This document shows positions 3,905 to 9,743 of a stretch of DNA of 64,000 bases, piece after piece. Position numbers and translations under genes: made by a program. The notes under the pieces are model-generated. The model saw only the letters and a program-made list of their open reading frames with translations. It was not told the DNA's origin and searched no databases. Origin of the DNA: Limnochorda pilosa (GTDB lineage Bacteria > Bacillota > Limnochordia > Limnochordales > Limnochordaceae); assembly GCF_001544015.1 (NCBI RefSeq), contig NZ_AP014924.1, positions 1,860,001 to 1,924,000 on the forward strand. The letters run 5' to 3'. Numbering within the stretch: position 1 is the first letter of the stretch; each line of letters begins with the position of its first letter.

Positions 3905-5320
3905 TCAGGCCGATGGCTCGTGGGGACCGTCCGCCTCCCGCCGGCCCCACATCCCCGAGAGCGCCGCCCGTGCCGACCGGACGGCCAGACCCAGCGAGCT
4001 GCGGGCGCCGGAGAGCACGTCGTCCAGGGCGTCCACCACGTGGTCGATCTGCTCCCGCGTGACGATGAGCGGGGGCTCCAGACGTAACACGTTCGGGTTG
4101 TTCAGGGTGAAGACGGTCATGACGTGGTGGCGCCGGAGCAGCTCTCCCGCGACCAGGCTGGCCAGGTACTCCTGGGAGAGCCGGGCCGCGCCCCCGAAGG
4201 AGAGCCGGTTCACCCACCCCTGGGGCTCCTGGAACTCGAGCCCGATCAGCAATCCCCGACCGCGTACCGCCCGCACCGTTTCGGGGTGCCGGTCCCGCAG
4301 CGCGCCCAGGCGCGCCAGCAGGTAGGCGCCCAGCTCGGCCGCCCGCTGGTGAAGGTCCTCGCGCACGATGATGTCCAGGGCCGCCAGGGCCGCCGCGGCC
4401 GCCCGGCTGTTCCCGCCGAAGGTGCTGGTGTGGATCCGGCTTCGCTCCAGGCTGCCGAAACCCTTCTGCCAGACGCGCTCGGTGGCCACCGTGGCCCCGA
4501 TGGGCTCGACGCCCCCGCCCAACGACTTGGAAAGGCAAAGGAGGTCCGGGCGGACGTCCTCGGCCTCGCACGCAAAGAGGGTCCCCGTACGCCCCAGGCC
4601 GGTCTGGACCTCGTCCACGATGAGCAGGGTCCCCGTGCGCCGGCAGAGCTCCTCCGCCGTCTTCAGGTAGCCGCTGGGCGCCAGGATCACGCCGCCCTCG
4701 CCCTGGATCGGCTCGATGATGAAGGCTGCGGCGTCCCGGGGGGCCAGGGCCTCCTCCAGCGCCGCGGCATCGCCGAAGGGAACCGCCGTGCGGTCGGGGA
4801 GAAGCGGCTCGAAGGGCTCCTGGTACGCGGCCCGGCCGGTGACCGAGAGGGCGCCGAAGGTCTTCCCGTGAAACGCGTTGCGGCAGTAGACGAAGCGCTT
4901 CCGGCCCGTCGCGATGCGGGCCAGCTTCAGAGCCGCCTCCACCGCCTCGGCGCCGCTGTTGCAGAAGAAGGTGTGGCTGAGCTCACCCGGGGTGAGCAGG
5001 GCGAGGTTCTGCGCCAGAGCCGCGGTCAGCGGCGAGAGCCCGGTCTGGAGCAGGTTGGGCCGTTCCTCCACCCGACGTACGGCGTCCAGCACCTCAGGCG
5101 GGTTGTGCCCTAGGTTCAGGGCGCCGAAGTGAGCGGTGAAGTCCAGGTACTCCTGGCCGTGCTCGTCCCACAGAAGGCAGCCTTCGGCCCGCGTGTAGAC
5201 GCGGTCGAAGCCCACCAGTCCCATGAGCTGCACCAGCGCGGCGTTGCCGTACTGGCGGTGCAGCTCCCGGGCATCGGCCCGTCCCATGGCCAGGGCCTCA
5301 TCCAGGGTGATCCGATTCAT
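3905..5320 (-). CDS. Class III PLP aminotransferase, putrescine aminotransferase (PatA)-like
   Basis: This 471-residue fold-type I enzyme is probably an aminotransferase that moves the terminal amino group of a diamine or similar substrate to 2-oxoglutarate. Visible family motifs are NSGAEAVEAALK (about 121-132), NAFHGKT, EPIQGEGG (203-210), the PLP-contact motif DEVQTGLGR (236-244) and the Schiff-base lysine in SKSLGGG (K265). The pattern matches E. coli PatA/YgjG better than ArgD or GabT. ATG 5320 follows AGGAGAG. A related aminotransferase domain is encoded 300 bases upstream (5639-8197), so the two are paralogues on either side of a tRNA. The true substrate cannot be read from sequence. 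Confidence 0.85.
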   Translation of the reverse strand: MNRITLDEALAMGRADARELHRQYGNAALVQLMGLVGFDRVYTRAEGCLLWDEHGQEYLDFTAHFGALNLGHNPPEVLDAVRRVEERPNLLQTGLSPLTAALAQNLALLTPGELSHTFFCNSGAEAVEAALKLARIATGRKRFVYCRNAFHGKTFGALSVTGRAAYQEPFEPLLPDRTAVPFGDAAALEEALAPRDAAAFIIEPIQGEGGVILAPSGYLKTAEELCRRTGTLLIVDEVQTGLGRTGTLFACEAEDVRPDLLCLSKSLGGGVEPIGATVATERVWQKGFGSLERSRIHTSTFGGNSRAAAAALAALDIIVREDLHQRAAELGAYLLARLGALRDRHPETVRAVRGRGLLIGLEFQEPQGWVNRLSFGGAARLSQEYLASLVAGELLRRHHVMTVFTLNNPNVLRLEPPLIVTREQIDHVVDALDDVLSGARSSLGLAVRSARAALSGMWGRREADGPHEPSA

Positions 5321-5436: not shown

Positions 5437-5514
5437 CGGGCTGTAGCGCAGCTTGGTTAGCGCGCCAGACTGGGGGTCTGGAGGTCCGGGGTTCAAATCC
5501 CCGCAGCCCGACCA
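5437..5514 (+). tRNA. tRNA-Pro (anticodon GGG)
   Basis: The gene folds as a full cloverleaf. The acceptor stem CGGGCTG pairs with CAGCCCG. The anticodon stem is CCAGA/TCTGG with loop CTGGGGG, giving anticodon GGG. The T arm is CGGGG-TTCAAAT-CCCCG. The 3' CCA is encoded. It has its own promoter and terminator and sits alone, pointing against the flanking genes. It would read CCC and CCU proline codons. Confidence 0.95.
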
Positions 5515-5638: not shown

Positions 5639-8197
5639 TCATCGCGCCGCCCCGCGGGCGGCGCCGCCTGTCCGGGCCGCGCTCGGCTGAAGCCCCATCA
5701 CCCGGGCCCGCTCTTCCTGGAGGCGCTGCCAGTCCTCCGGGGCCAGGGGACGGTCGAAGCTCCGCAGCCAGGCGAGGCGGAAGCCATGGCGAGCGGCCAG
5801 AGCGCGCATCTCCTCGAGCGTGGGCATGGCCAGGTCCGAACCCAGGCTCACGTGCTCGTAGCGCTGTTCCAGGGCCAGCATCATCGTCTCGGACATGCAC
5901 GCGTAGGCCAGCCCCCGCTCGAAGCCGAAATCGAACCCCAGGTAGGGGCGACCCGGAACCTCGACCACGCCGCCGTCGATCACCAGGACGTCCGGCCGCT
6001 CGGCCTGGATCCTGCGGGCCACGTTGGGTGGCCGGGACATGTCGCAGACGACGGCGCCCGGCTTCGCGTTCTCCGGCCGCACGAGCTCCAGGGTGCTGGA
6101 GGTCGCGGTCACCACCACGTCCGCCTGGGCCAGGGCCCGGTCCACGTCCACGGTGAGCTCGAAGGAAGGGTGCGGGCTGCGCACGCTCGCCTCCGCAGCC
6201 ACCTGCCGCAGCCGGCGGAGGCTCGCCTCCGCCCGCTGCGGGTTACCCACCAGCACCATCCGGCCCGCCTCTTCGGCCAGGAGGATGGCCAGAGCTCGCC
6301 CGATGGAGCCCGTGGCGCCCACCACGGCCACGGTGGCCTGCCGGAGGGAGAAGCCTAGGCGGGCCGTCGCAAGGCTGACGGCTTCCCGGGCCGAGACCAC
6401 TGTGTAGCTGTTCCCCGTGGTGATCGCAACCCCGAGTTTCCTCAGGTGTAGACCGCCCCGGGTGACCACCGCCGTGTAGGCCCCCAGGCCCACGATGCGG
6501 GCCCCCCGGTCCCTGGCCAGCTCCACCGCCCTGCGAACCTCGGTCTCCGCCTCATCCCGCGGCATGGCCAGGAGCTCGGAGGTGGTGCGGGGCACGGCGA
6601 TGAACTCGCCGTGCGCGGTGCGTCCTGCCGCGGAGACGATGCGGGTCTCGCCCACCACCATCGGCTCCAGGAGATCGCTCCAGCGGTCGGCAAGTCGGGC
6701 AAGGGCCGACTCGTCGAAGGCGGCCAGGGAGCGGTCGTAGTCCGGGTAGTTGGCCAGGCTGAGCGGGTGGACCAGGAAGGCGAAGCGCCCTTCGCCGGGA
6801 TCACCCGAGGGACGGACCGGCCGCGGCGCGGCGACCCGGAGCGCTTCCGGGCTCCCCCAAGTCCCGCGGGCCGTGAGGGTCGCGGGCGGCACCCCCGCGA
6901 GGTGGGCCACAAGGCGGGCGGTGTCGCCCTGCTGCAGGAGGCTCAAGGTGCGGTCCAGCCCGTCGGCCACCTGGTCGCACACCTCGTCCGAGGCGATCAG
7001 GGGCGGCTCGATCCGGAGGACGCTGGCCCCGTTCAGGGTGGGCGCGATCCGGATCCCCTCCACGTTCAAGAGGTGGCTCGCCACCACGGGGGCCAGGGCG
7101 CCTTGCTCTCCCAGGATGCCCAGGAGGCTCTGGGGATGGGTGTCGCGGCTGGCCGCGAGCTCGATGCCGAGCATGAAGCCCCGTCCCCTCACCGCCCGCA
7201 GGGCCCTCGGGTAACGCTCCCGCATCGCCTCGAGCTTCGCCTTGAGGCGGGCTCCCTTGCGGGCCACCTCGCGCACCAACTCCTGGTCGTTGCGGGTCAG
7301 GAGGTCCAGGGAGGCGAGGCCCGCCCGGCAGGCGAGCCCGCCGCCCGCGAAGGTGGACGAGTGCTTCTCGGCAAAAGCGTCGGTGTAGGCCGCATCGGTG
7401 AGGAGGACCGCCCCGATGGGCATCAAGCCGCCGCCCAGGGCCTTGGCCAGGGTGAGCACGTCGGGGGTGACACCCTCCGCCTCGCAGGCGAAGAGGCGGC
7501 CCGTCCGCCCCAGGCCCGTCTGGACCTCGTCCACCACCAGCAGCACGCCGTGCTCCCGGCAGAGGCGCTGGGCGCCGGCCAGGTAGCCTGGCGGGGGCTC
7601 CACGATGCCCCCCTCTCCCTGGATCGGCTCCACCAGGAAGCAGGCATACTGCTCCGGGTTCGACCGGAGCGCGGCCTCCAGGGCCTCCAGGTCGCCGTAC
7701 GGGATGCGGTCGAAGCCGGGCAGCGGGGCGCCGAAGACCTTCTGGTACGCTTCTCGGTGGGTGGCCGAGAGGGCCCCCAGGGTCTTGCCGTGAAAGGCGT
7801 TGCCGCACGACAAGACGCCCATCCGGCCCGTCGCCGCCCGGCACGCCTTGATGGCTGCCTCGGTGGACTCGGCCCCGCTGCTGGTGAAGGTCACCGTGCG
7901 GAAGCCCGGGGGTGCCACGGCCAGAAGCCGCTCGGCCAGCTCGCCTGCCGCGTCCAGCGACGAGGGCTGGACGAAGCTCGGGACGCCTTCCGCTTCCGCC
8001 TGGTGCAGGGCCCGCCAGATCTCGGGCGGGTTGAACCCGAAGGGGAGCGCTCCGTACGCGGCCAGGAAGTCCACGTAGCGCCGGCCGGCCTCGTCCCACA
8101 GGGTGCAGCCTTCCCCCCGGACGAACCTCTTGTCCATCTCCAGGCGGTTCAGGAGCTTCCCCAGGTGGGGGTTGACGAACTGACTGAAACGGTCCAT
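5639..8197 (-). CDS. Fusion: class III aminotransferase + acyl-ACP reductase (AAR)-like domain
   Basis: This is an 852-residue, two-part protein. Residues 1-425 are a complete PatA-like PLP aminotransferase: SSGAESTEAAIK, NAFHGKT, EPIQGEGG, DEVQTGLGR at 223-231 and Schiff-base lysine K252 in AKALGGG. A Pro-rich linker (about 435-470) leads to residues 470-815, which resemble cyanobacterial long-chain acyl-ACP reductase: FLVHPLS at the start, TTGNSYT (593-599), a Rossmann loop VVGATGSIG (625-633), DGGVVEVPG (741-749) and YACMSE with C767. C767 aligns with the acyl-carrying cysteine of AAR (FACFAE). The likely chemistry is reduction of an acyl thioester to an aldehyde and amination to an amine, or the reverse; that is inference. 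ATG 8197 follows GAGAGGA. The gene is third in an operon with 8230-9189 and 9186-9743. Confidence 0.85.
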   Translation of the reverse strand: MDRFSQFVNPHLGKLLNRLEMDKRFVRGEGCTLWDEAGRRYVDFLAAYGALPFGFNPPEIWRALHQAEAEGVPSFVQPSSLDAAGELAERLLAVAPPGFRTVTFTSSGAESTEAAIKACRAATGRMGVLSCGNAFHGKTLGALSATHREAYQKVFGAPLPGFDRIPYGDLEALEAALRSNPEQYACFLVEPIQGEGGIVEPPPGYLAGAQRLCREHGVLLVVDEVQTGLGRTGRLFACEAEGVTPDVLTLAKALGGGLMPIGAVLLTDAAYTDAFAEKHSSTFAGGGLACRAGLASLDLLTRNDQELVREVARKGARLKAKLEAMRERYPRALRAVRGRGFMLGIELAASRDTHPQSLLGILGEQGALAPVVASHLLNVEGIRIAPTLNGASVLRIEPPLIASDEVCDQVADGLDRTLSLLQQGDTARLVAHLAGVPPATLTARGTWGSPEALRVAAPRPVRPSGDPGEGRFAFLVHPLSLANYPDYDRSLAAFDESALARLADRWSDLLEPMVVGETRIVSAAGRTAHGEFIAVPRTTSELLAMPRDEAETEVRRAVELARDRGARIVGLGAYTAVVTRGGLHLRKLGVAITTGNSYTVVSAREAVSLATARLGFSLRQATVAVVGATGSIGRALAILLAEEAGRMVLVGNPQRAEASLRRLRQVAAEASVRSPHPSFELTVDVDRALAQADVVVTATSSTLELVRPENAKPGAVVCDMSRPPNVARRIQAERPDVLVIDGGVVEVPGRPYLGFDFGFERGLAYACMSETMMLALEQRYEHVSLGSDLAMPTLEEMRALAARHGFRLAWLRSFDRPLAPEDWQRLQEERARVMGLQPSAARTGGAARGAAR

Positions 8198-8229
8198 GGA
8201 ATGTCCTCTCTCCCTCACAAGGACTGCTC

Positions 8230-9189
8230 TCAGTTGGCCGGGGCCAGCGTCTCTGGGCTGCCGGCTTCCCCGGGTTGGGGGGCCGTCCCGTCCAGGCCCT
8301 CCACCCTGGGCTCGAAGCCCAGGCGATCCAGCCACTGGAGGTAGTCGGCGGGGGTCATCTCCTCCCACCGCTTGCCCGCCAGGGCCACGATCAACGCCTC
8401 CATGACGTTGGTGCCGAAGGAGCGCCCCTGGAGGTTGGGCGTGGTGGTCACCAGGGTCCGCACGCCCCGCTGGCGGAGTTCCTCCACGTTCTGGCTCGTG
8501 ACCGTGTTGGTGAGGATCACCTTGCCCGACAGGGCGTCGGGCATGTACCGCCGGATGAAGTGGAAGTCACCGGCGATCACGTCCGCCCACCGGAAGATCC
8601 GGGCATGGCGGGGCGTGATCTTCTCCTGCTTGCCGCCCGTGGGGTAGAGCATCTGGAAGGGCAGTTGGGTCAGGACGGGCAGCAGGATGCGGGCCAGGAT
8701 CCGCAGGCCCCGAAGGCTCCTTATGGGGATGGGCACACCCAGGGCGAAGATCAGATCGCCGTAGATCGTCTCGCTGCCGGCGGCCTCCAGGGCCTCCGCC
8801 ATGCCGAAGCGGTCCACCCCCGAGACCAGCAGGACCCGGCGGCCCCTGAGCGGGAGCACCCCCCGCGCCGCCAGGCGCTCCACCACCCGCCGCTCCAGGG
8901 TGTTCTTGAGGCCCGAGCCGTCCACGATGGGCGTGCGCCGGGCCGCCTCGAGCAGGGGCCGGGCTTCACGGATCATGTAGCGGCGCTCGCCGGCCACCAG
9001 GTAGAGGTCGATCCCGCCCATGCCGAAAGCGTCCACCGTGCCGTCGAGATCCCGGATGAGCGCCACCGCCCGGGCCCGGTCGCCGTCGGTGCCGATGCGC
9101 TCCACCGTCACCTCCTCACCCGCCGCCTGGAAGGTGGCCCTGGAGTTCCTGCTGGACGATCCCAGGCTGACGCTGACGATCCGCTTCAC
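8230..9189 (-). CDS. Conserved protein of unknown activity (family sometimes labelled quinate 5-dehydrogenase)
   Basis: This soluble 319-residue protein opens with a short beta strand (IVSVSLGSS). It carries conserved-looking blocks ERIGTDGD, FGMGGIDLY (about 56-64), DGSGLKNTLERR, a segment beginning GRRVLLVSGVDRFG that may be a nucleotide-type fold, and TTTPNLQGRSFGTNVMEA near the end. I recall relatives in clostridial genomes annotated as quinate 5-dehydrogenase. I see no shikimate/quinate dehydrogenase signature here and would not trust that name. It starts inside the stop of the HTH gene (ATGA) and ends 32 bases before the aminotransferase-reductase fusion, so it probably works in the same process. 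Confidence 0.6.
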   Translation of the reverse strand: MKRIVSVSLGSSSRNSRATFQAAGEEVTVERIGTDGDRARAVALIRDLDGTVDAFGMGGIDLYLVAGERRYMIREARPLLEAARRTPIVDGSGLKNTLERRVVERLAARGVLPLRGRRVLLVSGVDRFGMAEALEAAGSETIYGDLIFALGVPIPIRSLRGLRILARILLPVLTQLPFQMLYPTGGKQEKITPRHARIFRWADVIAGDFHFIRRYMPDALSGKVILTNTVTSQNVEELRQRGVRTLVTTTPNLQGRSFGTNVMEALIVALAGKRWEEMTPADYLQWLDRLGFEPRVEGLDGTAPQPGEAGSPETLAPAN

Positions 9190-9743
9190 CGTTCCTCCCC
9201 CCTCGCGGCCTGGTCCGCCTTCAGGGCGCGGATCAGCCGCCGTACTTCCTCGGGGTCCACGAGCCGGTCGCCCTGGATGGGCGAGGTCCCGATCACGACC
9301 CCCACCACCTTCCGGCCCAGGACCGCCTCCATCAGCTTCACCCGCATGTCCGATCCGAGGAAGACCACTGCGTCCAGCTCCCGGGCCTGGGAGATGAGGG
9401 CCATGATCTCGTTCACCAGGTCGAGCCCCGAGCGATCGCGCACGAAGGACCAGCGCTCCGCGTCGGTCATGAGCAAGACCAGGTCCAGCCCTTCTTCGGC
9501 CGCGACCCGCTCCAGGTCGGCCTTGTTCGCGACGGGGAAGCCCACCAAGGCGATCCTCCTGCCCCGCCGGAGCTCCCCCATGGCCTCCAGCCGCGAGACG
9601 AAGGTGCGATCCGTGCCGAGCCGGTCGGCCACCTCCTGCTGGGAAGCGCCGCCGGCCCGCATCTCCAGGGCCTGATCCACCAGGCGGTGGAGGCGCGTCC
9701 GGTCGATCACCTTCTCCCCCACCCGGACCAGATCCACCCTCAT
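9186..9743 (-). CDS. HTH transcriptional regulator heading the aminotransferase-reductase operon
   Basis: The protein has 185 residues. An N-terminal helix-turn-helix (SQQEVADRLGTDRTFVSRLEA, roughly 31-51) is followed by an alpha/beta domain of about 125 residues (RIALVGFPVANKADLER onwards) that could bind a ligand; I do not recognise that part. ATG 9743 is preferred because the promoter at 9792-9820 would start the mRNA near 9785, leaving a short leader. GTG 9770 is in frame but lies only about 15 bases from that start. The operator-like repeat at 9764-9780 suggests self-control. The stop overlaps the next start (ATGA). Confidence 0.7.
   Translation of the reverse strand: MRVDLVRVGEKVIDRTRLHRLVDQALEMRAGGASQQEVADRLGTDRTFVSRLEAMGELRRGRRIALVGFPVANKADLERVAAEEGLDLVLLMTDAERWSFVRDRSGLDLVNEIMALISQARELDAVVFLGSDMRVKLMEAVLGRKVVGVVIGTSPIQGDRLVDPEEVRRLIRALKADQAARGEER

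Follow-up and report, generated by a model that had tools for sequence, protein, structure and literature searches.

Bifunctional enzymes that combine an aminotransferase with a thioester reductase on one chain are known from two pigment pathways. PigE, from prodigiosin biosynthesis in Serratia, was shown in 2021 to be a reductase-aminotransferase whose N-terminal domain resembles acyl-ACP reductase (AAR) and bears C296; a PigE-containing lysate converted a thioester to an amine-derived product with ornithine, and PigE purified on its own was inactive as a reductase (PMC8341465). PtTamH, from tambjamine biosynthesis in Pseudoalteromonas tunicata, was described in 2022 as an aminotransferase-reductase. 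Together with its partner PtTamA, it converted a C12 acid to the C12 amine in vitro, and C12-acyl-ACP was taken via the aldehyde to dodecylamine with glutamate as the donor, NADH being used and not NADPH. The C12 aldehyde was detected when no amino donor was supplied, and C12-CoA was not accepted (PMC9594044). Cyanobacterial AAR is a stand-alone enzyme that feeds an oxygenase, which yields alkanes. C294 of SeAAR and C296 of PigE have been named as the acyl-carrying cysteines (PMC8341465, PMC9594044).

The protein analysed here, P0001, is of the PigE/TamH kind, and its acid-to-amine fusion design is already published; the sequence-only reading of this DNA had held that no such enzyme was described, a claim that PigE (PMC8341465) and PtTamH (PMC9594044) overturn. 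Compared by its published description, PtTamH shares with P0001 the domain order and the roles of the cysteine and lysine (PMC9594044) and is of similar size (941 aa against 852 aa), whereas in PigE the order is swapped, with the reductase first. The window, meaning the whole 64,000-nucleotide stretch analysed, corresponds to positions 1,860,001-1,924,000 of the single-contig 3.8 Mb genome of Limnochorda pilosa (class Limnochordia), and contains the following features.

5639..8197, minus strand: fusion gene P0001, 852 aa, aminotransferase then AAR-type thioester reductase
6908..8197, minus strand: class III aminotransferase domain at the N-terminus, spanning residues 1-430 (model match; Pfam Aminotran_3 hit with E 1.8e-91 across residues 25-417)
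7442..7444, minus strand: codon of K252, the PLP-binding lysine (invariant in 26 fusions)
6803..6907, minus strand: linker, residues 431-465 (model confidence low near residues 441-460, block mean pLDDT 56-58)
5642..6802, minus strand: thioester reductase domain of the acyl-ACP-reductase type at the C-terminus, spanning residues 466-852 (SeAAR and PigE matches)
6299..6319, minus strand: GATGSIG dinucleotide-binding motif, residues 627-633 (motif position and alignment)
5897..5899, minus strand: codon of C767, the cysteine predicted to carry the acyl group (in line with SeAAR C294 and PigE C296 in the alignment)
8230..9189, minus strand: P0003, 319 aa, found as a conserved gene just ahead of AAR-like genes (synteny, AAR-like predicted fold)
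9186..9743, minus strand: P0004, 185 aa helix-turn-helix (HTH) protein, first gene of the module (Pfam HTH_31 just over the cut-off, synteny)
3905..5320, minus strand: P0002, a second class III aminotransferase of PigE-like type (46% identity with the P0001 N-terminal domain)

The single 852-residue frame joining two domains, as described in the sequence-only reading, was confirmed and lies on the minus strand, which that reading had left unstated. Its 852 codons run from an ATG at 8197 to a stop at 5639, and a ribosome-binding-like AGAGGA stretch was observed at 8204-8209, 6 bases upstream of the start. K252 and the motifs TTGNSYT (residue 593), VVGATGSIG (625) and YACMSE (765, giving C767) were all found where they had been placed. 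The AlphaFold model of the whole protein had a mean pLDDT of 86.9.

The C-terminal 383 residues matched Synechococcus AAR (6jzq) over nearly the full length with an E-value of 2e-22, and the N-terminal domain of PigE with 1e-30. A family profile of the reductase domain gave 1e-43 for AAR and 6e-57 for PigE, whereas glutamyl-tRNA reductase reached 2e-7 and the best-scoring shikimate 5-dehydrogenase (2egg) 4e-4. The Pfam Shikimate_DH match was confined to residues 609-732 (E 1.6e-7). Judged by sequence, the likeness of this domain to AAR and PigE is far beyond chance. A better fit to shikimate dehydrogenases lacking the cysteine had been raised as the contrary outcome; AAR and PigE fitted far better, and C767 was conserved. 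Cyanobacterial AAR (PDB 6jzq, 6jzu, 6jzy, 6jzz) matched the domain over its full length and shares the cysteine and the nucleotide motif, and PigE (4ppm) was the closest PDB sequence match for both P0001 domains. The NCBIfam PigE model (NF053554) was also the top match of P0001, yet its 573.5 bits fall below the cut-off of 850.

In an alignment of 100 sequences, the C767 column was kept in 32/32 other Bacillota fusions, 58/59 stand-alone relatives, all four proteobacterial fusions, all three PigE-type proteins and SeAAR. The proposal that C767 is the counterpart of the acyl-carrying cysteine of AAR is thus borne out by its alignment with SeAAR C294 and PigE C296. These data also bear on the view that the reductase domain has lost its catalytic function, leaving P0001 to act as an aminotransferase only. 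The failure of purified PigE alone to act as a reductase (PMC8341465) would fit such a loss; however, the catalytic cysteine and the nucleotide motif are kept in all fusions examined, which makes a dead reductase highly improbable.

A tree of the reductase domain was divided by a branch with SH-aLRT support of 99. On one side were the aminotransferase-linked domains (33 from Bacillota, 4 proteobacterial and 3 PigE-type), which clustered regardless of domain order, although long branches make placements within this side unsure; on the other side were the 59 stand-alone relatives and SeAAR. In this tree and in the aminotransferase tree below, the described fusion enzymes are represented by PigE-type proteins. 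A difference was also seen in the cofactor loop that follows strand two of the nucleotide fold: an Arg is present there in SeAAR and the stand-alone proteins compared, whereas the aminotransferase-first fusions have an Asn, usually within GNP (Gly-Asn-Pro), and no Arg at that spot, P0001 itself having GNP; the alignment contains gaps here and the residue equivalence is approximate. Since SeAAR uses NADPH and PtTamH uses NADH (PMC9594044), and since the fusions lack the Arg, NADH is the better guess for P0001, and by this analogy its reductase is probably NADH-dependent.

For the N-terminal domain, a structural search with the P0001 model found the putrescine aminotransferase PatA/YgjG (4uox) with Z 53.2 and PigE (4ppm) with Z 52.0; rmsd was 1.9-2.0 for the two, and the PigE match covered 406 residues with rmsd 1.9 and 41% identity. 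This search with the full model listed aminotransferases only, as the larger domain fills the list, and the overlay of P0001 on AAR therefore rests on sequence. PLP-site residues including D223 and K252 were invariant across 26 fusions. The earlier label of "PatA-like" proved loose: the fold is indeed near YgjG, but P0001 scored 285.8 bits against the 612-bit cut-off of the NCBIfam putrescine aminotransferase model, which a separate gene of the same genome passed with 651.6 bits, and in sequence comparison the domain is nearest to PigE. In the aminotransferase tree, the aminotransferase-first proteins formed one group (support 100/99) adjoined by the PigE-type proteins and P0002, and this side was separate from PatA, ArgD and the GABA aminotransferases encoded by the same genome. 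A tRNA gene lies on the opposite strand at window positions 5437-5511 (+), between P0001 and P0002, and it is therefore uncertain whether P0002 belongs to the unit of P0001. A P0002 counterpart was also seen behind the fusion at two other loci (L009 and L127).

We consider P0001 to be, like PigE and TamH, a bifunctional thioester reductase/aminotransferase that converts an acyl thioester via the aldehyde to an amine, with a probability of roughly 80%. C767 would take over the acyl group of a carrier-bound thioester, most probably acyl-ACP; the C-terminal domain would reduce this thioester with NADH or NADPH to the aldehyde, and the N-terminal PLP domain would transaminate the aldehyde through K252 to a primary amine, using an amino-acid donor. 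The same reaction course and acyl-carrying role for C767 had been put forward in the sequence-only reading, and homology supports them well. Because the steps are drawn from relatives, we infer the direction, the acyl substrate, channelling and the NADH preference of P0001. Moreover, PtTamH refuses acyl-CoA and purified PigE is inactive as a reductase, so the substrate and partners of P0001 are not predictable from its sequence.

Both half-reactions, thioester reduction and transamination, are reversible in principle. P0001 might accordingly degrade a primary amine via the aldehyde and conserve the energy in an acyl thioester (acyl-CoA or acyl-ACP), and the nearness of its aminotransferase fold to putrescine aminotransferase, a catabolic enzyme, would agree with this. 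The described relatives PigE, TamH and cyanobacterial AAR nevertheless run reductively, a true putrescine aminotransferase and GABA aminotransferases are already encoded elsewhere in the genome, and no amine catabolic genes were recognised beside P0001. We therefore regard the reverse direction as unlikely.

The setting of P0001 differs from that of its described relatives. TamH sits in a pigment cluster and receives its acyl group from the TamA carrier, and PigE stands among PigD and prodiginine genes; P0001 has no adjoining cluster or carrier, and no PigD or prodiginine genes were recognised near it. A pigment or natural-product cluster was sought around the fusion loci examined and none was found, with no carrier, PKS or PigD gene recognised; likewise, no carrier or adenylation gene was recognised beside the fusion in the first 20 kb of the window. 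The whole genome held one clear ACP, the housekeeping one, as its sole clear carrier. Given this single ACP and the lack of a carrier or adenylation gene beside the fusion, the acyl donor of P0001 is a guess. A second carrier was considered and rejected, as the weak PP-binding match looks like chance, no serine motif of the carrier type being seen in its reading frames.

A further possibility is that P0001 acts on a non-fatty activated acid, as a semialdehyde step of core metabolism comparable to ArgC/ArgD or to glutamyl-tRNA reductase/aminomutase. The fusion is common in the class outside recognisable pigment clusters, the reductase domain is remotely related to glutamyl-tRNA reductase, and aspartate-family biosynthesis genes lie near the fusion in the window and in close relatives. 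This neighbourhood is, however, not retained beyond the close relatives, and fatty acyl-ACP reductase fits far better than glutamyl-tRNA reductase (1e-43 vs 2e-7). Replacement of a missing hemA or argC was also rejected, both genes being present; with glutamyl-tRNA reductase, ArgC, ArgD and PatA all encoded separately in the genome, the fusion fills none of those gaps. On balance, a non-fatty substrate appears doubtful, although less so than the reverse reaction.

A genome search for the same domain pair, as proposed in the sequence-only reading, found the fusion well beyond this genome, in the class and on proteobacterial plasmids. One unbroken match across both domains was present in 39 of the 73 class genomes, and in 2 more both domains lay in one open frame, so that the fusion occurs in at least 41/73 (a count made by eye). 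At a further site (G355:C1:505891-508436), the aminotransferase and reductase matches fell in open frames of different length, and the gene may be split or frameshifted. In the contig search, 28 loci with the fusion turned up in Bacillota, along with about 50 that carry a stand-alone AAR-like gene and belong mostly to Armatimonadota. Plasmids of Haematobacter, Rhodovulum, Leisingera and Paraburkholderia phymatum carry fusions of the same order, as checked domain by domain; the P. phymatum fusion shows 47.6% identity across 97% of the protein. The Leisingera plasmid protein (1395 aa, L103 8959-13146) carries the aminotransferase, AAR and acid-CoA-ligase-type domains in one chain, which we read as activation, reduction and transamination. 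The prodiginine-like clusters of Pseudoalteromonas xiamenensis and Methylocystis iwaonis have the PigE order instead. One genome (G111) had both a fusion (L118 6300-9032) and a stand-alone AAR-like gene (L119 2814-3899), the latter with Ser in place of the cysteine; its assembly is listed with 7% contamination, and the two genes may come from different cells.

The stand-alone AAR-like proteins of Bacillota, Armatimonadota and Coprothermobacter are about 35-47% identical to the P0001 domain but have no aminotransferase domain, and often have the same HTH and P0003 genes upstream. P0003 was the commonest neighbour of AAR-like genes in these three groups. In the window, P0004 and P0003 overlap by 4 bases and the gap between P0003 and the fusion is 32 bases. 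The order HTH, P0003, stand-alone AAR-like gene was found in 11 of the 23 re-read loci (L107-L112, L114, L116, L117, L125, L126), and a twelfth had P0003 and the AAR-like gene; several of the loci with the full order had dusB upstream and greA and lysS downstream, names assigned by eye from the sequences. The fusion replaces the stand-alone gene after P0003 in the window and at five other loci (L009, L011, L012, L118, L127), so that P0001 occupies the slot held in many bacteria by a stand-alone AAR-like gene. Three loci (L120, L122, L124) had the HTH gene beside the fusion with P0003 absent, and many other fusion loci had neither gene adjacent. The only families recurring in both fusion and stand-alone loci were P0003 and two generic ABC-transporter families. 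Among 299 genomes of the phylum, 187 had both P0003 and an AAR-like domain, 36 had P0003 alone, 8 the domain alone and 68 neither, an odds ratio of 44 as tallied by eye and with kinship not corrected for. The literature search found no described function for the stand-alone family and no paper on P0003 with AAR.

P0003 had no Pfam match. Its predicted structure (pLDDT 88.3) was closest to cyanobacterial AAR, with Z 14.4 over 249 residues and rmsd 4.3; beyond AAR-like folds, glutamate dehydrogenases came next (Z 10.4). A domain of the carmabin NRPS pathway (9e4s, 9e4u, 9e4x) was the next fold match after AAR (Z 12.9-13.7) and also matched the AAR-like profile with an E-value of 1e-12. Comparison of P0003 with the AAR profile gave no support (hhalign probability 0.7 percent), and a P0003 profile search of the PDB found nothing. 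As the fold likeness is without sequence support, kinship between P0003 and AAR is unproven. With the conserved helices at the C-terminus aligned by eye, we read the invariant Asn N261 of P0003 as sitting at the position of the AAR cysteine.

Taken with the main reading of P0001 as an acyl-thioester-to-amine enzyme, these observations lead us to suggest, tentatively and as a possibility short of an even chance, a housekeeping pathway of Bacillota and Armatimonadota that uses an AAR-type reductase with P0003, and to which Limnochordia and their relatives have fused an aminotransferase that would turn the aldehyde into an undescribed fatty or other amine. On its model, P0003 seems to be a second protein of AAR-like fold in that pathway, one without the cysteine. 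On the main reading, P0001 serves a class-wide function and not a pigment pathway, and the spread of the fusion shows that the acid-to-amine design of two pigment pathways is a standard gene throughout a bacterial class. The fusion family may provide a source of acyl-ACP-to-amine biocatalysts. The HTH protein, P0003 and the AAR-like reductase form a module that is widely conserved and uncharacterised, and the aldehyde or amine that it would yield can be tested for directly.
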